A program made the translations under genes and the position numbers. The notes beneath the pieces were generated by a model. The model saw nothing but the letters and a program-made list of their open reading frames with translations. It was not told the origin of the DNA and did no database searches. Below are positions 2,701 through 32,310 of a stretch of 64,000 nt of DNA, piece by piece; position 1 is the stretch's first letter, and the number at the start of each line of letters is the position of its first letter. Source of the stretch: Mayamaea pseudoterrestris (Eukaryota > Bacillariophyta > Bacillariophyceae > Sellaphorales > Sellaphoraceae); assembly GCA_027923505.1 (NCBI GenBank), contig BROI01000014.1, positions 124,001 through 188,000 of the forward strand. Reading direction: 5' to 3'.

Positions 2701-4880
2701 GAACAACGCGAACGACGACCGCGCACGATCGTGGACTACAGTTTCTTTGGCGTCATCGACGAATCCGTTCCGGTTGCACCATTCAAGTCAATGTACTTCG
2801 GCCGCGCCTTGCATCAGATCATGTATAACATTGTGCGAGCCAACCCTCGTTATGGGCGTCTATGTTGCCAAAATTGACATTGCCGACGGTTTCTACCGCA
2901 TCAGGCTACGCCCGGCCGACATACCAAAACTGGGCGTCCTCTTTCCCACGAGTCCTGGCAAAGAGCAACTCATCGCTTTTCCGCTCATGCTCCCCATGGG
3001 TTGGGTGCACTCGCCGCCATTCTTCACCTTGGCTACCAAGACGATCGCCAATGTTGCCAATGCCACGCCGCGCCACAATACCACAACGCACGCACCGGCT
3101 ATAAGCAGAGGCCGACACGCCACCTGCACCCGTGCCTGACGATCCGCGCGCCGACTCCGCCCCCAGCACAATGCTGCTGCCAGCCACATCCACGGCGACG
3201 TACTTTCAGCGCCCGGTTGGCCATCATGATTTGTATGTCAATGACTTTATCGGATTGTGCCAAGGCGGCTGGCAACGACAGCGCTAGTTACGCCATTATT
3301 TTTTCCACGCTCTCGATATGTGTTCCACCCGCTCCTGCCTTCTGACAATCCACATTGACAAGAGCCGGCCACTAGGAAGACAATCCTTGGTTGGGATATT
3401 GACACTGTCGCCAGCACCGTCACGCTCCCGCCTCACCGACTCGCGCGGCTCCACGCTATCCTTGAGTCAATCCCTCCCACGCGACAGCACCGGGTGGGAC
3501 ACAAAACTTGGCATAAAGTCTTGGGTGAGCTTCGCTCCATGTCGCTCGCGTTGCCGCCTGGTGTTCGGGGACTCTTCAGTTTGCTGCTGCAAGAGGCGTT
3601 CCGACACCCCCTCAAACACGCGGGGCGCCTGCACCTGAAACCCGCCGTGCACACGTTTCTCACCAACTTTCACGCCGTGGCACGTCGCCTCTCCGCACGA
3701 CCAACTCGAATCCTCGAAATGGTGCCTCAACCCACGGGCCCTCCGGCACGATGGATACAGCCAGCCATGGCATGGGTGGCGCCGTGTTCTTCAGTCGCCG
3801 CATGCGACCTTTCATGTGGCGCCATCCTTTCACGCCACTCATCCAATCCAAATTGGTGGCCAGCAACAATAGCAAATTGGAACTGGCCGGCAGCGTCGCA
3901 CATCACGATGTCATCGCTCAATTGGCCGATGTGGCCCTCCATGACAACATCACCGCCATCAGCTGGCAACAATGCAGCTCCACCACCACAGTCGGTCCGG
4001 CCGCACTTCTCCGCCTACAAAGCTGGCACCAACGCCACTGTCGCTACGTCCCGCGATACGTTACGTTCCGGGGCCCTGCAACGTCATGGCCGATGACGCG
4101 TCACGTCTCTGGGAATTATAAGACAACGAGTTTCCAATCCTGCATCTTCGCGCAGCTCTTCCGAATGGGAGACATCGCACCCGCGGTCAACCCGTCCGGG
4201 CAAGCACCATGGATGACGTTATTCGTGCCGTCGGTCAAGCGTTCGCCCTCATGGGGATCCGCGACTTTCTCCTCCGCCCCGGTGAGTACACTGGCGTCAC
4301 AGTCGACTTGGAACCCTTTCGCGGTTTTGTGACGTTCAGTTGTTCCACGCTGGCGGCATCATGAATCTCGCCACTGCACACGCGCCAGACTTGGCACGCT
4401 CCATCGACTGCAGCTTTACTTTCACCACACAAATGAATGGTAAACGCGGGGAGGTCGTCGCCCACGGCGTCACTGGCAACCCCCTTTCTGCCCCACTCGC
4501 ACTATCATTAGCCGCCTACTTCACCTCCACGCCCGCTCCGCGCCCGCGCGGCCACCGTCTTTCTCCCGGAACCCTACGCGCTCCGCTCCGGGACATCACC
4601 ACGGCACTCCGCGACACCGTGGTGTTGCTCAGCCCCGTGCTGGGCATTCTGCCTACTGACTTCAACTCAGCTCGCTTCGCGCCGGCGGCGTCTAGCCAAC
4701 TTCTCTCCTTTTACGTGGACTCCGACCGCATACGCCTCATTGGTCGTTGGCACTCTGACGCCAAGCTAAGATACCTCCACGATCAAACCCTGCCCTCCAT
4801 GCACCACTACGCCCACCTCATGGTCGCTGGCGGCCACTTAAATGATATTATCAATTATTATGTTTATCTCATGTAATTCT
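2650..4880 (+). mobile_element. Fossil retroelement with reverse transcriptase and tyrosine recombinase (DIRS/Ngaro-like)
   Basis: Two parts are recognisable on the plus strand. Around 2850-3090 there is a reverse transcriptase segment with KIDIADGFYRIRL and PMGWVHSPPFF, a form seen in stramenopile retroelements. Around 4430-4840 there is the C-terminal part of a tyrosine recombinase, with GKRGEVVAHG and IRLIGRWHSDAKLRYLH. The pairing of RT with a tyrosine recombinase rather than a DDE integrase defines the DIRS order. The element is broken in several places and looks old. It lies between two direct copies of a 105-120 bp repeat array. Family is inferred from the two-domain combination; the exact clade is not known. 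Confidence 0.7.
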
Positions 4881-4924
4881 CGCGCCGTCTCGCGCTCTGT
4901 CCAAGCCCTATATAGAATTCATTG

Positions 4925-5450
4925 TTCATAGAATAATGCAGTTACTATACGTGCTACAACAACTTCCCGTGGCCTATTTAAACGACAATTTAATATTAAC
5001 AAGATTGTTGGAGTCCGACGCCACCGAACTATCATTAACAAAATATTGCCCATAAAATGCTTTTTATACGAGCGAAAACAACCTCTCATAGCTCATTCGA
5101 ACCAAAATCTAATGCTACAACACAAAGGTTTATCATCGGAGTTTGGCGGCCAAACAATAAAAGGTATGACCAAAAATTTAAATTACTTATAGCTCATTCA
5201 AACCACAATTCAATGGTCAACTCAATTCTTGGTTTGTGATGGTGGCGAATGCTCAAAAACAAGAATATTCATGAAGTCATTGTGGCGAATGCTCAATAAC
5301 AAGAATATTCATTTAATGCTTATTGTACGTGATAAATTAACCTCCCATGGCGCATTCGATCCCAAAGGTTTATTATCATGTTCTAAAAGCTCATTCGAAC
5401 AGCAAATCTTTTATACTCATTATGCCACATTCGACTTCGTGTGGTCTTAA
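4925..5450 (+). repeat. Array of about 105-120 bp repeats, right copy
   Basis: Same unit and orientation as the 2190-2700 array, with cores near 4952 and 5071 and more diverged copies near 5185 and 5331. Inside it, the segment gtggcgaatgctcaaaaacaagaatattcat is locally duplicated (about 5240-5270 and 5282-5312). It directly follows the retroelement, so the element sits between direct copies of one repeat family. Confidence 0.7.
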
Positions 5451-21099: not shown

Positions 21100-22939
21100 T
21101 CATCTCAGCAGCAGACCGCGCAGCTGTACAACACCATCTTCAATAGTGAGAGCGAGCTTTGCGAGAAAATTGTTTACTTGATCAAAGCACCATGTCCATT
21201 CGCCCCCGAAACGTGACAAAAACTCCCACGTAGCTGATTTGCGACAAGCTGCCGCAACGTATGCTCCTGCTTCCGACACCAATGAATTCGTCCTCGTCAA
21301 AATTGACGTGAGCGCCGAAGAAGACATGGAGGTGACACAAGCCACAAGCGATAGAAGCGAGTCGACAATAATAGTAGCTAAGCTTGACAAGGATGAGGCA
21401 ACGAACCGGCGGCTATATTCAAAGCTACCAAACACGCATTCGATCCCACGAGCCGGCAGCATCAATATTCCATTCCGACTTTGATCTAGCAGCCGACTCG
21501 CGCCCGCCCCTATATATTTAAAAAGCGACCAAATAGCTCGAACTGGAAATAAAAGTACATTCGAAACACGTCTTCCTGCGCCTCCGAACGCACGGTTCGG
21601 CCAAGTCAGCATTCTCCGAATTCCAAAAGCAGCATTATTTGCAAGGCTCTTGACAGCATTCTCAAACAAGTGCACTTCTTGCTCCGTGGACCTCGCGTAT
21701 CCGACAGCCATGATACTGGATACAAGCAACCCTATGCCAACTGTTGTAAACACAATCGTACTTGCCGGTCTTACGGCGTGTCCAAGACTGTTACGCAAGG
21801 CTTCACCAGCAGTGCGCTGTACAATATCATCTCCCAACACATCAGTGGCAAATTCCATGCTGCATTGGAAAACAAAACACAGCGTTAGTTATCTCTAATT
21901 GCTGCTACGCACGATGCATGCTGATATAAACTCACCTGTGATCAAGAACGTCCGAATCATTCAACGTTGCATGGGCCGACTGTTTCAGCAACTCAGTAAT
22001 GGTGGTAGGCACCGGCTCCTCTCGCGCCATTTTCTGCAGCATGGCAACTATGGAATCCTTGACCTGAGGATCGTCGACAATTTCAAGCACCAACTGTTGC
22101 ACTGCGCGTTTTATATTTTCGTCTTGAATCACCTTATTACAAACCTGAATGACTTGCGCCACCGTTTCCTTGTCATTGATCAAGTCGCGAAAGAGTTCCG
22201 CCAGTAGTTTATTGAGTGCGGTCTTGACTGGCTCGGACGACACCACCGTCACGACAAACTGCTGCGCCGCCTGCTGCAGCGTCCGCGACTGCATGACATC
22301 CTGCAGTATCGGTTCCAGTGCATTGTGGTATTTGAACGTTTTGCTTTCACCATCCTCCAGTATCACTTCCTCCTCCTTGCCCCATTCCGTCCTTGCCAGC
22401 TTGCTAAGGTCATCAATCACGTCGCTGCTGGCAAAAAAGTCGTCGTAGTCATCCTGCTCGAGAGTCTTGATTTGCTTCATAATGTACGGTGACGCCAGTA
22501 TCAAAATGGTCAGCACCGAAATTAACACAACGGCTACTTGATCACCTAAATTCAAATCCGTGACAACTCCCTTTAATCTTTGGAATTGCTGTTGGGCGAC
22601 GACGCTGGCGTTGGAGTGTGGAGTAGTGCTTGTTGTTGTCGCTGTCGTTGGTGCATTGCTGGTTGCTGCGTCGCCTGATTTTAGTGTAGCAGCATCTTTT
22701 TCGCTATCACCCTTCTCGCTGCCTTTTTGACTGCTGAAATACCGAAAATTCCGAACGCCATATTTAGAATGCAACGATTGTCGTATTTCGTTCGCGTGAT
22801 GTAAATTGATTGGTGCGGTTGATAAGAGCCTCATTGCCATGGAAACGGACGACGACGACGATGGTGCGATCCTGTTTCCGCCACACGTGGCAGTCGAAGA
22901 ACGCACCACTCGACAGGCGTTATGCCCTATTCTCAGCAT
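21100..22939 (-). CDS. Probable mitochondrial membrane protein, two exons
   Basis: Exon 1 is 22939-21936 and exon 2 is 21859-21100, separated by a 76-bp GT-AG intron (21935-21860); joined they give 587 residues. The N-terminus is rich in Arg, Ser and Ala without acids (MLRIGHNACRVVRSS) and has RNFRYFSSQKG near residue 67, like a mitochondrial presequence. A hydrophobic segment VAVVLISVLTILILASPYI lies at about 135-153. A helical, charged central region (LQQAAQQFVVTVVSSEPVK and later ALNKLLAEL) follows, and a second hydrophobic segment (STIVFTTVGIGLLVSSIMAV) opens exon 2's product. No family is recognised. The 5' half and promoter are duplicated at 31437-32310. Confidence 0.75.
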
Positions 22940-22991
22940 GTTGAAGCTTTGGAATATCTATACTACGCAGCCAGTCGAACGCAAGATGCTA

Positions 22992-23002
22992 GAGTATATA
23001 GA
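22992..23002 (-). promoter_or_regulatory. TATA-like element for the mitochondrial protein gene
   Basis: On the minus strand this reads as a TATATACTCT-type element about 55 bp before the ATG at 22939. The corresponding place in the duplicated copy (near 31935) has lost the clear TATATA form. Confidence 0.35.
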
Positions 23003-23601
23003 GGGGTAAGGATTCTTTGTGGGGAGCGTGAGAAGGTGCGAGCCAAGCTCATGATCACGAATGTCGCACTGGTAAAATGAGGGATGCAGTCGTACCGGTT
23101 ATGAACTGCATCGAGCGCTTGGGAGTGCTTTTTCCTCGACTTGCGGCCGCAAACGCAAGGCATCCAACATCTCGAAGAAGATACTTTTGAGAGAAAAACG
23201 CTTGCAAGGTTACACTCACTTTACACGTAGGTCAGCAGTCTACCATTGCCGCGCGAGCGAGAGTATTGGAGACGATAATACGACTGTCGAGTAGCGCGCT
23301 GTCAATCAACGCAGCAAGTTTGCAAGGAGTTTAAAAAGAAGCAGCGCTGAAGGCGTAGTCAACATTCTGTGAAACACTGGGTGCTCGCTGGCTACGGTGA
23401 AAGGCTAGGACAGAGTTGTAGAGGCTGTTGAAAGACATTTTAGTTTCGTTAAGATACAAGCTGCGGCTACGGATGTTGGTGGCAACAGATTGTGAGAGCA
23501 GTCGATGGTTTGCCGAGCATGAGCGGTTCTGCTTGCAAAGCCGAAGGGTCCGGAAGCACATGGTCGGAGGCCCAAAGGGGCATTTCTTTTGGTCGTCCTT
23601 C

Positions 23602-24000: not shown

Positions 24001-24524
24001 CACTTTTCAGAGTGACTGAGTGGATGCAACGTCAGCAGAAAACCTGTGTACGTTGCTGTGTGGGTACTGTCAATGTTTTGGTGCACTTTTCAGAGTGACT
24101 GAGTGGATGCAACGTCAGCAGAAAACCTGTGTACGTTGCTGTGTGGGTACTGTCAATGTTTTTGTGCACTTTTCAGAGTGACTATGTGGATGCAACGTCA
24201 GCAGAAAACCTGTGTGTACGTTGCTGTGTGGGTAATGTCAATGTTTTGGTGCACTTTTCAGAGTGACTGTGTGGATGCAACGTCAGCAGAAAACCTGTGT
24301 GTACGTTGCTGTGTGGGTAATGTCAATGTTTTGGTGCACTTTTCAGAGTGACTGTGCGGATGCAACGTCAGCAGAAAACCTGTGTGTACGTTGCTGTGTG
24401 GGTAATGTCAATGTTTTGGTGCACTTTTCAGAGTGACTGTGCGGATGCAACGTCAGCAGAAAACCTGTGTGTACGTTGCTGTGTGGGTAATGTCAATGTT
24501 TTGGTGCACTTTTCAGAGTGACTG
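24001..24524 (+). repeat. 83/85-bp tandem array, six copies plus a partial
   Basis: Units start at 24001, 24084, 24167, 24252, 24337 and 24422, with a final partial at 24507. The first two are 83 bp and the later ones 85 bp, because aacctgtgtacg became aacctgtgtgtacg. Point differences in the stretch after agtgact (gagtgg, tatgtgg, gtgtgg, gtgcgg) change stepwise along the array, a signature of local duplication. It lies about 380 bp before the Crypton frame. Confidence 0.95.
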
Positions 24525-24903
24525 AGCATGAAATCGTTTGTCCAGCTCCAATTGCCCATTGGCGCGAAGCAAATGCTTTTCATGAACGTAGGTAGGCTTT
24601 ACCTCATACCGGGTTACTATGAGTCATTCAGAGAATAATAACGAAGAGTAATGGTATCTAATCACGTGTCACTTAGGAAGGGTTAAGTAGATGCCACGTG
24701 AGGGTCTGAGGGTCCGCACCGCGATGTATCGTGGTGAACTTCACCCCGCGACCCTCGAAATGCTCGCCTGGCTCGGGAGTGCATTGGCTCGCTCAGCAAT
24801 AGGCTCCCAATGCGCCACGAAACAGCATGTACTCCTCACATTTCGCCGATGAAAGAATGTGTCGATGGCGGCTCCTTGACTTTCAATTGCCATTAACAAA
24901 ACA
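24525..24903. other. Crypton 5' flank
   Basis: Non-coding stretch between the 83/85-bp array and the recombinase start, probably holding the left end and promoter of the Crypton. The 11-mer gggtccgcacc at 24710-24720 is nearly repeated at 27169-27179 (gggtctgcacc). Confidence 0.4.
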
Positions 24904-26925
24904 ATGGCTTCAATCGGCGGATGGTGCGTTCTGCACCCTGATCTGCAGAGCAAGCTTGACAATGAGCTTGTTCTTTCTGCGGCACATAATGGATTCACTC
25001 TGTCGCCTCCTCCATTTCGCTTCCGCTGTAATGTATGGCACTACACCAACGGACCAGTCTTGGCCGAGAAGACTCAGATCACTTCTTACCTCTCTTACTA
25101 TTCGATGCTTTGGCGGTTTCTCGCAATGATTGGAGACTGGGAATCAATGCTTGTTCTCCTTCTGCCTAGGCCTATTGGTCTTGGCAAGGTTCCTTCCATG
25201 AAGGTTGAGTCGCTGGTGCTGTTTCTGCGTTGGAAGAAACTCGACACGAACACATTTTTGCGTGACGACGATGAGATGCTTCTCCGTGACGCTAACTTCA
25301 ACGAACCAATTCGTTGCAATGGTGGATGGAAGAGTAACCATAGCATGAAGGCCTTCGCCTCAGCCATTGTATGGCTCCATATGTCCATTGGATACGAGGC
25401 GCAGGATTCTTTCAAGGAAAAGTGTGTTGATTGTTTGAATCTTTTCCGCGTCGACCAAAATAGCCATGGATGTAACGAACACTTTGGCAACCGTCAGATC
25501 AAACGTATTGGACAGCCGACACATTGTTTCAAATTTGCCAACGGAAAAAAACAGTTGCTCGACAAGGACTACGAGGTACACGGATCCTGTGCCATTGCAC
25601 CATGGCAGCTTCGCAAACTTGGCGCGTTGCTTGTCTACGAAGGACTTGTTGGTTTGAGCGTTTGGGTTGCCGTTCTGATTGCAATCAACTTGTATTTGAG
25701 AGCAGACGACGAGTTGCTGACGATATCAATGGAGAGTTTTGAGGCGTCGTCCTTCCACGTCGAAGCAAACGGACGAATCAACGGTGTCTGCCTCAAGATA
25801 CGCGGAAAGACCGACTCGCGTGGACAGTACTTTCATCTTTGGGCGGACCATGAGTATCCGGACATCTGCCCAGTCCGCCATCTGCTGCTGTTGGTGCATT
25901 TGCTTGGCGTTAAGAAAGGTTGGTTGTTTCAGTCGCTCCGGTCGCTCGGGGCAAACACGAGGCGCGACGACGGAGACTACAGAGGCACTAAACGACTCGA
26001 CTACGGAACAATATTCAAGTATTTAAAAGAGCGCTTTATTGAATTATTCGGTCCTGAGACAGGCAAGGGATTCGGTATGCACTCGTTCCGCAAAGGTGCT
26101 TACTTGAAAGCGGCGTTTCAAAAGGCGGACTTGCGAATTTGCCAATACGACGCTCGCCACATGCGCCATGAAGAAGCCGTCTTGTATTTGGGGAACGCCA
26201 ATACACTTGTTTCATCCAATGAAATCAATCCAAGCCCAGGAAACGAGCTTGCCAAGGCATACAGAGGCGTTCGCAATGGTGGCGCGCAACCAAGTCCCCA
26301 AGAGCATGCCGGTAAATCACTCGCCCAGCTCGCCGACGAGTTTGTGTTGCAACTAAAAGTGCCGCATGGCGTGGCGCGCAACGTTCGCTCATTGGTAATT
26401 GAGGCGCAGCAGTTTCAGTGGTCGACTGTCGAAGGAGATTGCCTCGAGCAATGGCTAATGACTGTTCCAGTGGAGCTTCGTAATCCTTGCAAAACCATTT
26501 GCTTGCGATACAAAAGGCAGGTCGAATCAATTTATAAGCAGCAGCAGTTGATTGAGGCAGAGAAGGTTGCAGCAGTTACGCCACCGTCGTCGTCGTCGTC
26601 GTCAAGCAAACGCGCAAAGAATGCGACGCCGCCAACAAATTTCTTTGCGGGGCGAGAGACGATTGCTCAGTTGAAGTCACTTCCTCAGAAACTTGACGCC
26701 TTGCTCGAGCTGCATGATAGAGTCGAGGCGATTGGTGGCGTCGAAAGAATTGTTCTTGATGCGAAGGAAAAGAAATATTTTGCTCGAACGTTGGCGCCCG
26801 TCGCGCGTTGTTTCAAAAACCATTGCGGCGAGGATAGAGAGGCGTTCGTCGGTAGATGGGAAAGGACATTTGCAATCAAGTTTAGTGAGTCATGCTGCAA
26901 AGGCGTTGGTGAATGTGGCCGTTGA
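24904..26925 (+). mobile_element. Crypton tyrosine-recombinase gene (DNA transposon), open frame
   Basis: An intact 673-residue frame. A tyrosine recombinase catalytic set is visible: Arg266 in YLRADDELLTIS, a probable beta-strand Lys in IRGKTDSRGQYFHLW, His393 and Arg396 in HSFRKGAYLKAA, His419 in ARHMRHEEAVL and the nucleophile Tyr428 in VLYLGNAN. The upstream 250 residues are the likely core-binding region. The C-terminal 240 residues include a Ser run followed by KRAKNA, a possible nuclear signal. No RT or transposase of another class lies nearby, so this is a Crypton (stramenopile forms are called CryptonS), which moves as DNA by site-specific recombination. No stop or frameshift is seen, so it is young or under selection. 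Termini are not certain; domestication cannot be excluded. Confidence 0.85.
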
Positions 26926-27234
26926 TAATGCTAGTAGTTGCCTTTATTTGTTACTTGTCGTCCATGGTTGATCTCGCAAGCGTCCGTCGAGAAACCAGAG
27001 TTGAAGTTGCGGCAGGCGAGTTTCTGTAGAAAAGTAGATCCGTGGTAGAGTTTCTACGGAGGAGCCATCACCGGTCGTCGGAGAAACTCTGGCGAAACAT
27101 CGGCGTTGAGGCCATTGGCCGGCGCGCATGGACCAACTAAGTCCAAAACGTGTTCAGTACCGGGTCGAGGGTCTGCACCATAGTAATGCAGTTACTAAGC
27201 GCTGCGAGACGAAGGCTGTGCAGCCTCACACAGT
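26926..27234. other. Crypton 3' flank
   Basis: Non-coding stretch between the recombinase stop and the 172-bp array. It contains the inverted pair gagaaaccagag ... gagtttctgt and the similar tagagtttctacgg ... gagaaactctgg (about 26989-27095), a hairpin-prone segment that may be the element's 3' end. Confidence 0.4.
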
Positions 27235-28087
27235 GCAGTGCAACCATGAAGCTCCCAAGTTCATTTCCAGTGACGGGCCCTCTGCGGCCACTGGGGTGGA
27301 ATACGGAGGTGATTGTAAGGGCTGCAGTGTCAAGGGGAGTCAAGGCAGTGGTCAGTGGTCCTAGCAAGGCAAGAGCACAAAAGGTGTCAAGGTTCCTGGC
27401 GACAGTGCAGTGCAACCATGAAGCTCCCAAGTTCATTTCCAGTGATGGGCCCTCTGCGGCCACTGGGGTGGAATACGGAGGTGATTGTAAGGGCTGCAGT
27501 GTCAAGGGGAGTCAAGGCAGTGGTCAGTGGTCCTAGCAAGGCAAGAGCACAAAAGTTGGCAAGGTTCCTGGCGACAGTGCAGTGCAGCCATGAAGCTCCC
27601 AAGTTCATTTCCAGTGATGGGCCCTCCGCGGCCACTGGGGTGGAATATGGAGGTGATTGTAAGGGCTGCAGTGTCAAGGGGAGTCAAGGCAGTGGTCAGT
27701 GGTCCTAGCAAGGCAAGAGCACAAAAGGTGCCAAGGTTCCTGGTGACAGTGCAGTGCAACCATGAAGCTCCCAAGTTCATTTCCAGTGACGGGCCCTCTG
27801 CGGCCACTGGGGTGGAATACGGAGGTGATTGTAAGGGCTGCAGTGTCAAGGGGAGTCAAGGCAGTGGTCAGTGGTCCTAGCAAGGCAAGAGCACAAAAGT
27901 TGGCAAGGTTCCTGGCGACAGTGCAGTGCAACCATGAAGCTCCCAAGTTCATTTCCAGTGACGGGCCCTCTGCGGCCACTGGGGTGGAATACGGAGGTGA
28001 TTGTAAGGGCTGCAGTGTCAAGGGGAGTCAAGGCAGTGGTCAGTGGTTCTAGCAAGGCAAGAGCACAAAAGTTGGCAAGGTTTCTGG
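27235..28087 (+). repeat. 172-bp tandem array, about five copies
   Basis: Units start at 27235, 27407, 27579, 27751 and 27923 with exact 172-bp spacing and very few differences. Each contains atgaagctcccaagttcat and gggccctctgcggccactgg. Because 172 is not a multiple of three, shifted open frames of about 96-128 codons recur on both strands; these are artefacts of the repeat. The last unit is interrupted near its end by the Copia LTR. Confidence 0.95.
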
Positions 28088-28088
28088 T

Positions 28089-28399
28089 TGTAACTTGTAA
28101 ATCAAATCGTTGCACCTTTCGCTTGTAGCTGTCCTTGGATGGCCAATCCAAGCTTGCAGTTGCTACAATACGAGAGACGAATAAATCGCTTTCTTAACTC
28201 TTCAAGCTTAGTAAGTCTGCTTGTTTCTACTCTATATCGCACTAGTTTCAGCAATATACTTGTTGAATCGCTTCGAAGCCGTCGCTGCCACGCATCACGC
28301 GATCGTGAGGCTGTGGTGAGCCGCGAGTGCCGCTGTGTCACCCTATCGGACATTCGGTGTGACTTGCCCGATTTTCGCTGTTTTCGTTCGCATCCTGCA
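28089..28399 (-). repeat. Probable Copia 3' LTR
   Basis: Bounded by TG and CA on the element strand, adjacent to a polypurine tract on the pol side and to the interrupted 172-bp unit on the other side. No second copy is present in the window, so the boundary is inferred from the motifs alone. Confidence 0.6.
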
Positions 28400-31300
28400 A
28401 CTCCCCTCAAGTCATACCTAATAGTTAGATTCCTTGAAGAGCAGGTTCTTTAAGTGCTTGCTTGCCGTAGCCCGTGGAAGAAACTTGGTAAGTACATCCG
28501 CCGGGTTTGTCGTTCCCATGATGTGGTTGAAATTAATAATTCCCGCCGCAATCGCTTCGCGTACACGGTGAAATGCCAGTGCATTGTGTCGCTTCGTCAG
28601 ACTAGAGTGCGGTAGGTTGCTGCTTTGCGTTACCGACTTGTTGTCTCCAAACATCCATGAAGGTCCGTCGAGCGGAACTCCCAACATGCGTAGCGTGAAG
28701 CGAAGATCCATGATCTGCTCCGTGCTCACTCTCGCTGCTGCAAACTCCGGGCAACGTCGCCGTCTCGACCGTCGCTTGGCGTTTCGAAAGCCAATCAACG
28801 ACTGTTCCATTCAACATGTGTAGCATGCCCATCGCTGCCCGTCCCGTCGTGTAATCGTGGTACAGGTTCGCATCTTCGAACGTTGACATTCGCCTGCGCC
28901 TTGCCGCGCGGCGTGGGCATGTTCACGGAAGCTCCTTCGCAGATCTTGCCGACACTGTAATCCCAATCCATCTTGTCAACTGTCGCGTATCGCTCGTCCG
29001 TTGGAATCGAAACGTTGAATCGAATCGCTCCATCCGGGTATCGTCGTAAGTATCCGCAAATATGCTTCAACCGTTCCAAGTGCCCCGCTCGTGGCGCAGC
29101 TCGGAATCTCCCCATAGTCATGACAGCGCAGTGAATGTCGAATCGACATAAACTTACTGCCCATTGCAACGCACCAATTATCGATTGATACTTCGCAATT
29201 CCATCGACGTCAAGTTCTTTCGTTTCGTCGAGTTCCGGATGATCGCCGTCGCGTAGTGGACTTGTCTGCGGTCGCGGTTCCTCGCCGAACATTTCTTTGT
29301 AGTTCGCTAGTAGTCGTGTGACGTACTTCTTCGCTCCGAAGCATATTATGCTATCGCCGTCACCCCAAACGTCTGCGACCAAATGATATGCTACTTGACC
29401 GACGCTCTTCAACTTGTAGTTGTAGTTCTCAATTAAAAGATCCGTTAATTCCTTCGGATTCTTCATCGCTATCGCTAAATCATCGACATACACACAAACG
29501 TATTCGTAGTGCGTGCCTTTATCGCGCATCCACACGTCCGGTTCTGCGATACACGGCGTGAAGCCAATGTCGCGGAGCGTGTCGGCAAAGTGTTCGTGCC
29601 AGCGTGCGCCTGACGTGCGAAGACCGTATAATGCCTTCACAATCGTGAGCGTGTGACCCTCGAGCTCCCCGAACTCCGGACCTGCCACAATAAAAACCTT
29701 CTCTTTCGTTTTCGCTTCCAAGTATGCGTTGCCGACGTCAGCTGCCCACAGTTCCAGACCGTTGAGTTCCGCTAACATCGCTACCATTCGTAGACTTCGC
29801 AATGACACAACGCCCGAGTAAACTGGAATCCTTCGGCGGCTCTCATATGTCCTCCTGCAACGAGTCGTGCTTTCCGTCGCAAATCGTCTTGACATCGAAT
29901 ATCATGTGCACGTTTATTCGTTTCCCACGGCGCCGGCATAACGCTTTACCGACTCCTTGATCTGCGAACGTGTCGTAATCATTTATCTGATTTAATTCCG
30001 TTCGAATCGCATCCGTCCACAGCGTGTTGCCGTTGATCTCGTCGAGAGCTTTCGCATCTTTATAATTGCGCGGCAACCTTACGCCGAATATGTAGCGTGC
30101 GCCTGTTTGCTTTCGATTTTCGTTTCGCCGCTGTTACCATCTGTCGAAACTTCTTTCGCTTCCGAGTGTAATGCTCCAGCTGCTTCCATCCTGGCTTGTC
30201 GAGTAAGCCGTGCTTGAGTCCATACTCTGCGATCGTTATCGGATCATCCTTCTTCATGATCGCGAGAGGCTCCACGTCGTCGTTCCGTCAGTCCATTCGA
30301 CGAGAACGTTACTTGAACTTCCTTTGTATGTCGGATCGTTCGGTTTCAAATTAAGCTCGTGTCCGATTACCTTCGTGAATACCCACTGAGTCGCCGGATC
30401 GTTTCGTATATCTTCGTCCATCTGTCGTTCGATTAAATCCGACAGTTCGTTGGTACTTTCGCTGGCTCCTCTCCCATTTGGATTAGGAAACCTTTCGTCG
30501 TTTCGAGTAGCTCGTTATCGCGTACTTCGATATATTCGCATACAGTCGCTCGCATTTTCTGACCGTTTTCGTGTTCCCTACGGACCAGTGTCCGATGAGT
30601 TCGCGCTTGGAGAGAACAGAGGGCATTTATTCCTGATTCTTGCTCAGCCCTTCTGAAGAACTTCGCTGGTACGTTGGCGTGGTTCGCCATCGGAATTGTT
30701 TCGTCGTCGTTTCCTTCGTAGTTGTCGTGACTACTCTGTCACATGCGTGCTATGGTAGCGTCCTGTCGCGAGATCTGAGTTTCAAAATTTCCGCTCGCTT
30801 GCGCGTGTAGCTTCTTCAGAAATCTCCTCCAGACTCAGGGAAGGGAGGCAACTCTCGTGGTAACAAGTAGCTGCGCGAGACCACGTTGAGCGCGGAATCG
30901 CCTGAAGCGTGTCGTCCGTCAGAACGAGAAAAGTCATGTGCGGACCGCTATTCTCTGCGATGCCCACGAATCGGCCGTTGCCCCAGATCGTACCGCCGAG
31001 GGAAAGCTCCCTGCGCCTCAAACGTGACCGGTTCCCACCGCACTTGAAATGTAACAAAGGCGAAAGATATCCGGCAGATTTCACCGAACGCAACTTCCGT
31101 TGGCGTGCGCCATCCCAGCGATTTCGTCGCGAGGACGTTCAGTATCATGATTACGAATTTAATCAGCAAAACCCAGCAATGGCCTGCAGGAACCCGAATC
31201 TCGTTGGAGGTTCTCCATCATTGGGCTTAATTTGCGACGTGTGACGTTCGCATGGATTTTGTTCTGGATGACCCGGTTCTGTGGTCACTTGAGGAATATT

Positions 31301-31436: not shown

Positions 31437-32310
31437 TCATCACCTTCCTTGCCCTTCCTTGCCAGCTTGCTGTCATCAATCACTCCTGCTGGCGAAAAAT
31501 CTCTGTCTCCTGCTCATTTTTTGATAATGTACGGCGACGCAAGTATTAGAATGGTTAGCACCGAAATCAGTACAACGGCCACTTGATCACCTAAATTTAA
31601 ATCCGTGACGACTCCCTTTAGTCTTTGAAATTGCTGTTGGGCAACGACGCTGGCGTTGGAGTGTGGGGTAGTACTTGTTGCTGTTGTCGTTGTTGCAGGT
31701 GCATTGCTTGTTGCTGCGTCGCCTGATTTTGGGAGAGCAGCATCTTTTTCGCTATCACCCTTCTCGCTGCCTTTTTGACTGCTGAAATACCCAACCATGT
31801 ACTGATGCAACGATTGTCGTCTTTCCCTGATCGTTTCTGGTGCGCTGGATAAAACCTCATTGCCATGGAAACGACGAACTCAATCTTCCTGCTCGAAACG
31901 CACCACTACGCGCTCTTTCTCCTGTACTTTTGAATAACTATACTAGGGACCCTCGAACCAGCGTAAAGGGATTCTTTGCGACGAAACGCGAGGCCAAGCC
32001 CATGGTGGTCGATGTCGCACTGGTGGTAAACGGACACAATCGTACCGGTTTTGGACGACTGCTCCGAACGCTTGGGAGTGCTTTTACTCGCATCGCGGCC
32101 GCAAACGCGAGGCACCAACATCTTGAAGAAGATACTACTTTTGGGAGAAGAATTCTTGCAAGTTTACACTCACTTTACACGTAGGTCGGCAGTCAACCGT
32201 TTTCGCGCGAGCGAGAGTATCAAAGACATTGGCGATCGGCTGTCAACAACGCAGCAAGTTTGCGAAGACTCCAAAGAGACGGAGCGTGACGCGCGTGATC
32301 TACATTCTCC
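31437..32310 (-). pseudogene. Truncated duplicate of the mitochondrial protein gene 5' end and promoter
   Basis: This stretch aligns with 22362-23366 in the same orientation. It contains a copy of YFSSQKGSEKGDSEKDAA and of LNLGDQVAVVLISVLTILIL (about 31800-31520), then the non-coding upstream DNA, including ttacactcactttacacgtaggtc, present in both copies. The original N-terminal coding part is altered and out of frame and everything after the first hydrophobic segment is degraded or missing, so it cannot encode the full protein. Because promoter DNA is included, it is a DNA-level duplication and not a processed copy. Confidence 0.85.

Follow-up and report, generated by a model that had tools for sequence, protein, structure and literature searches.

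A probable autonomous Crypton-type transposon with defined ends in a diatom genome

Cryptons of the CryptonS group have been published from one diatom, Phaeodactylum tricornutum, and seven oomycetes (PMC3212892). As described in that survey, CryptonS elements have terminal direct repeats of 5–6 bp and no GCR1_C domain, and the majority of them, not all, have TATGG termini (PMC3212892). The Cryptons of P. tricornutum are reported in two publications (PMC3212892, PMC5859163), the second of which gives 13 copies with a total of 16,556 bp for P. tricornutum Phatr3, and the Crypton superfamily is listed for Cyclotella cryptica (PMC7466962). The survey also describes domesticated DUF3504 genes without most of the catalytic tetrad and, writing in 2011, presents the transposition, transcription, translation and regulation of Cryptons as then unstudied (PMC3212892).

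The window, the whole 64,000-nucleotide stretch of DNA analysed here, contains an element of 2,583 bp whose best explanation, with a probability of about 85%, is a Crypton-type DNA transposon of a diatom that is autonomous, present in few copies and most likely a CryptonS. The Crypton (CryptonS-like) label is applied because of the catalytic spacing of the encoded protein, the anatomy of the element and the host group. Compared by published description, the element resembles CryptonS in its stramenopile host, its tyrosine-recombinase-type protein encoded by a long gene, the lack of GCR1_C, its terminal direct repeats of 5–6 bp without long terminal inverted repeats, and its low copy number (PMC3212892). 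It differs from most CryptonS described there, which have TATGG, in its GTTACT/TTACT ends, and from some, which carry a C48 peptidase gene, in having no second gene. A diatom host, low copy number and small total length are shared with the Cryptons reported for P. tricornutum Phatr3 (PMC5859163). CryptonS is the assignment that we infer, and Crypton-type tyrosine recombinase transposon is the safer name; the element is most likely of a kind that was known from diatoms before. Its features are:

24614–27196, plus strand: whole element, with left end TTACTATGAGTCA... and right end ...CCATAGTAATGCAGTTACT; the match between the window copy and the copy on contig C17 stops here.
24613–24618, plus strand: left copy of the 6-bp direct repeat GTTACT, from the boundary comparison.
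27191–27196, plus strand: right copy of the 6-bp direct repeat GTTACT, with partly other bases in the copies on contigs C12, C5 and C2.
24904–26925, plus strand: tyrosine-recombinase-like gene, 673 amino acids (R266, H393, R396, H419, Y428), from the open reading frame and the pattern test.
24700–24714, plus strand: two GAGGGTC heptamers, starting at 24700 and 24708, subterminal on the left.
24750–24756, minus strand: inverted GAGGGTC heptamer on the left side.
27167–27173, plus strand: GAGGGTC heptamer close to the right end.
27178–27191, plus strand: putative right recombination arm CCATAGTAA (27178–27186) followed by TGCAG (27187–27191), facing TTACTATGA (24614–24622) when the ends are joined.

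The gene is a single uninterrupted reading frame with an ATG start and one terminal stop. Stop-free frames reached at most 275 codons among 30 first-order Markov versions of the window, so the 673-residue frame is not a product of chance. The preliminary description had reported an unbroken frame with a catalytic set, and both the frame and residues R266, H393, R396, H419 and Y428 were confirmed as stated; lysines are present at positions 298 and 302, among others, and K298 or K302 as the catalytic lysine is a guess. The protein has the order R ... HxxR ... H/W ... Y of tyrosine recombinases, with 23 residues from Arg396 to His419 and 9 from His419 to Tyr428. These are the corresponding spacings (Arg to His/Trp, and His/Trp to Tyr) of Cre and XerD. 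A strict pattern, R-(91–140)-H..R-(22–24)-H/W-(9)-Y, occurred in 24 of 5,000 shuffles of the protein and in none of the 22 other window reading frames given to the test (of 33 others), and a looser pattern in 461 of 5,000 shuffles and 1 of the 22 frames. The strict pattern may also begin at R291 or R300, so R266 is the presumed first catalytic arginine. By itself, the motif is moderate evidence for a tyrosine recombinase.

Searches for homologues returned no tyrosine recombinase in Pfam (whole protein, core and C-terminus), in PHROGs or NCBIfam (whole protein and core), or among PDB sequences. No Pfam domain scored over its cut-off in the 673-residue protein, which has no reverse transcriptase, DDE transposase or virus domain, and at E ≤ 10 neither the full-length protein nor its C-terminal part matched GCR1_C, as expected of CryptonS. 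On its long reading frame the element thus has the make-up of a Crypton, a DNA transposon without reverse transcriptase or DDE transposase, the tyrosine recombinase identity of the protein being a separate point. In IMG/VR a single pattern match turned up, and no relative was confirmed. The PF12012 (DUF3504) profile found no match in the genome, but none in 14 control genomes either, and is hence uninformative. Two AlphaFold models of the protein had mean pLDDT values of 32 and 36 and were unusable; a Foldseek search with the second, of that quality, gave nothing at E ≤ 0.001 and no tyrosine recombinase among the 50 matches listed. The name Crypton, already used in the preliminary description, is a reasonable inference, although no sequence search (Pfam, PHROGs, NCBIfam, PDB) backed it.

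A protein search of the organism's own genome (30,627,229 bases, 30.6 Mb, in 41 contigs) gave five matches, and the same five at a looser E-value. Three are intact copies, on contigs C14 (the window), C16 and C17, with amino acid identities of 100, 99 and 97%; on C6 there is a C-terminal fragment of the protein (66%), and on C5 a distant decayed relative with 28% identity and four stops. The window and C17 copies, the latter 2,574 bp long, have common boundaries and unrelated flanks. Together with three gene-less copies, these dispersed copies are the pattern expected of Crypton mobility, and decayed copies, whose abundance had been put forward as evidence against the earlier reading, are few. 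Segmental duplications were considered as the origin of the copies and rejected because the alignment ends at the element ends.

The copy on C16 has a different structure around C16:581816–581870 and 584160–584400. Over its first approximately 85 bp, 31 of 82 aligned bases differ, a strong divergence compared with 19 differences over 2,019 positions of the coding part. Its right end continues directly into 30 bp of the family's left end in inverted orientation, with GTTATT at the join. A nested insertion may explain this structure, as may a rearrangement made by the recombinase. The C-terminal fragment on C6 (locus positions 4685–5211) has as its close neighbour, within a few bases, 140 bp (94% identical) of the repeat that follows a tandem array of 172-bp units to the right of the window element.

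Substitutions among the three intact genes are biased towards synonymous changes. The dN/dS ratio is 0.101 for the window and C16 copies (14 synonymous and 5 non-synonymous changes; Fisher p = 2e-6), 0.180 for the window and C17 copies (35 and 23; p = 2e-10) and 0.216 for the C16 and C17 copies (33 and 26; p = 1e-8), and the observed synonymous counts were reached in 0 of 5,000 runs of a neutral simulation for each of the three pairs. That the frames stay free of stops does not by itself decide the matter (P = 0.07 for 58 changes). Because the pairwise ratios are 0.10–0.22, the protein was probably kept functional during the spread of the copies, and such purifying selection across dispersed copies agrees with a transposase whose spread depends on its working. 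The noncoding parts of the window and C17 copies differ by 3.1% on the left (9 of 290) and 1.8% on the right (5 of 271), compared with a dS of 8.3%; since the noncoding difference is below dS, the element ends may also be constrained. The earlier suggestion that the element moved here recently stands in its first part, movement being favoured by copies on three contigs with common ends, unrelated flanks, direct repeats and gene-less relatives. Its recency is relative only, with a dS of 0.032 to the nearest copy and 0.083 to the third. Searches with joined flanks found no empty site for the window or C17 copy, and matched only occupied sites and flanking repeats.

Apart from its long gene, the element contains only reading frames of 100 amino acids or fewer. 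Its two ends, TTACTATGA and ...GCAGTTACT, are not TATGG; this motif is present subterminally, on the opposite strand at the right end. The two element ends share no inverted repeat of at least 14 nt, and short terminal direct repeats (4–6 bp) without long terminal inverted repeats are characteristic of Cryptons. The GTTACT direct repeat is also present in the C17 copy, and the right-hand repeat agrees with the GTTACT core in 4 of 6 bases on C12 and 3 of 6 on C5, the C16 copy being rearranged. GAGGGTC occurs nine times in the window on both strands, four of these inside the element. Measured from the left end, three of the four are at offsets 87, 95 and 137, the one at 137 being inverted; the fourth is 30 bp from the right end. 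All four heptamers are carried by the C17, C12 and C5 copies, the left ones at identical offsets, and the C16 copy, with its diverged left end, has only the inverted and the right heptamer. The heptamer is a lead, because the motif was picked after being seen and the copies are of common descent.

End-pattern searches allowing up to 3 mismatches placed each end at five sites in the genome, with none for the reversed-pattern controls. They revealed an element of approximately 430 bp with the same termini and no recombinase gene; its copies on C12 and C5 are complete and 98% identical to each other, and the one on C2 is 5′-truncated. Alignment of the C12 copy to the full element gives 80% identity across 271 columns on the left side and 95% across 58 bp on the right side. 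These gene-less copies would be internal-deletion derivatives of a sister family, presumably moved in trans. They set the element apart from CryptonS as described in the published survey, which reports such derivatives for CryptonI and CryptonA (PMC3212892).

The ends and their flanks suggest how integration may proceed. A G precedes all five readable left ends (window, C17, C12, C5 and the extra left end beside C16). After TGCAG, the right ends continue with TTACT in the window and C17 copies, TCACC on C12, TCTTT on C5 and TTACG on C2. The four bases after the common T agree with the element's own TACT at 14 of 20 positions (binomial p = 3e-5 at 1/4), a count that leaves out the rearranged C16 copy and becomes 17 of 24 with its right side (TATT). 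When the ends are joined they form CCATAGTAA-TGCAG-TTACTATGA, with 8-bp perfect inverted arms around 5 bp, within a predicted circle junction of sequence CCATAGTAATGCAGTTACTATGAG. An 8-bp arm was reached in 4 of 3,000 control joins of random window positions, and a looser 12-bp junction score in 87 of 3,000. The right arm of the C17 copy has one change inside, and that of the gene-less family retains AGTAA as its only unbroken match.

In the mechanism proposed from these ends, the encoded recombinase would cut both ends and join them into a circle with the junction CCATAGTAA-TGCAG-TTACTATGA. Recombination of this circle by the same enzyme with a G^T(T/C) site of the genome that resembles the GTTACT core would follow, so that the left junction would carry TTACT from the element and the right junction bases of the target itself. 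Alternatively, TTACT at the right is the element's own and has mutated in the three gene-less copies. The circle model extends to an integration rule that may be legible from the copies, in which the junction of 8-bp arms and TGCAG selects G^T(T/C) targets partly matching GTTACT, the GAGGGTC heptamers are accessory, arm-type sites of recombinase binding, and the ends mobilize the gene-less derivatives of approximately 430 bp in trans; this rule is put forward tentatively, as possible but somewhat short of probable. On C17, 11 bp separate the copy from the 3′ end of a 5S rRNA gene (Rfam RF00001; C17 locus positions 3343–3461), and stretches resembling this gene are found on 9 other contigs. Pol III genes, a target prompted by this neighbour, were rejected as a rule because no other RNA gene was found in the window or in the fetched C16, C12, C5 and C2 loci.

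Two tandem arrays flank the element, one of 85 bp × 6.2 on the left (24001–24524) and one of 172 bp × 5.0 on the right (27230–28087). A DNA search that leaves out simple repeats and very frequent words found the 85-bp array nowhere else in the genome, and the 172-bp unit forms one other array, on C12; the 'satellites' of the preliminary description are thus short arrays, and the term overstated them. It went too far also in calling the surroundings decayed, as it is the immediate 23–32 kb that is repeat-rich, with a partial Copia-type frame and the two arrays, and ordinary genes lie to the right of this part. All 34 window reading frames of at least 150 amino acids were scanned against Pfam. 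Among the 33 other than the recombinase-like gene, 15 have a match at E ≤ 0.001 (13 of these over the Pfam cut-off), including two reverse transcriptases and one myosin frame of 1,286 amino acids. To the right of the 172-bp array, the repeat at 28088–28500 has at least 42 matches in the genome, all those listed being 98–100% identical (40 of 111 candidates scored). It is probably the start of a Copia-type element with the adjacent RVT_2 frame (28795–29895), and if so this element would have undergone a young expansion; the copy may be truncated, because no second LTR was found in the window. The transposon, the two arrays and the Copia-type piece all lie between the two members of a diverged direct duplicate, 22387–23368 and 31453–32308 (86% identity over 360 bp and 78% over 340 bp). 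The host is taken to be a diatom because its genome contains silicon transporters (10 matches to PF03842, 9 over the cut-off) and many light-harvesting-type matches (53 to PF00504, counted exon by exon). Three silicon-transporter domains lie in one open frame of 1,445 amino acids at C1:2970661–2974680, apparently a fused triple transporter.

A role as a host gene, the other option raised in the preliminary description, would make the locus a domesticated gene of Crypton origin with a cellular function, and the intact frame and dN/dS values well below 1 are in its favour. A transposase under selection while spreading would give equally low dN/dS, and the gene is not a single locus without transposon ends: its three intact copies lie in unrelated places, with transposon boundaries and direct repeats, and their ends are common to the gene-less relatives. 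Like the animal DUF3504 genes, the protein is read as derived from a tyrosine recombinase; unlike them as described in the survey, without most of the catalytic tetrad, it retains the catalytic set (PMC3212892). Domestication is accordingly very unlikely, and the copies point to a mobile element and not a host gene.

Tyrosine recombinases are also used by DIRS/Ngaro retrotransposons, polinton-like viruses and virophage-like elements (PMC4157794, PMC12220804), and the gene could in principle be part of such a larger element. The copies are confined to 2.58 kb with one long reading frame that has no reverse transcriptase or virus domain, and the nearest reverse transcriptase fragment (RVT_2) lies outside the element beside the high-copy repeat, which leaves this as the least probable explanation. 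Slightly less remote, and still improbable, is a transposon whose protein belongs to a new transposase class and has acquired the R-HxxR-H-Y spacing by coincidence. It would account for the lack of a sequence or fold match to tyrosine recombinases (with an unusable fold model), and the 24 of 5,000 shuffles that carry the strict pattern give it some room; set against it are the ends of tyrosine recombinase type, with a short direct repeat and no long inverted one, and the catalytic candidates, which are invariant in all three copies. None of the 29 variable protein columns falls at a listed catalytic residue, and a substituted tyrosine or arginine, named earlier as evidence against the first reading, was not encountered.

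The Crypton-type transposon adds to the known elements of its kind the details of a predicted joined-end site with 8-bp inverted arms, proposed G^T(T/C) insertion and a heptamer near both ends. Apart from its testability it is an ordinary transposon. Its three intact copies, defined ends, predicted circle junction and small gene-less partners make it a convenient substrate for tests of Crypton excision and integration; the defined ends and gene-less partners are the most useful of these, as through them the mechanism becomes testable.
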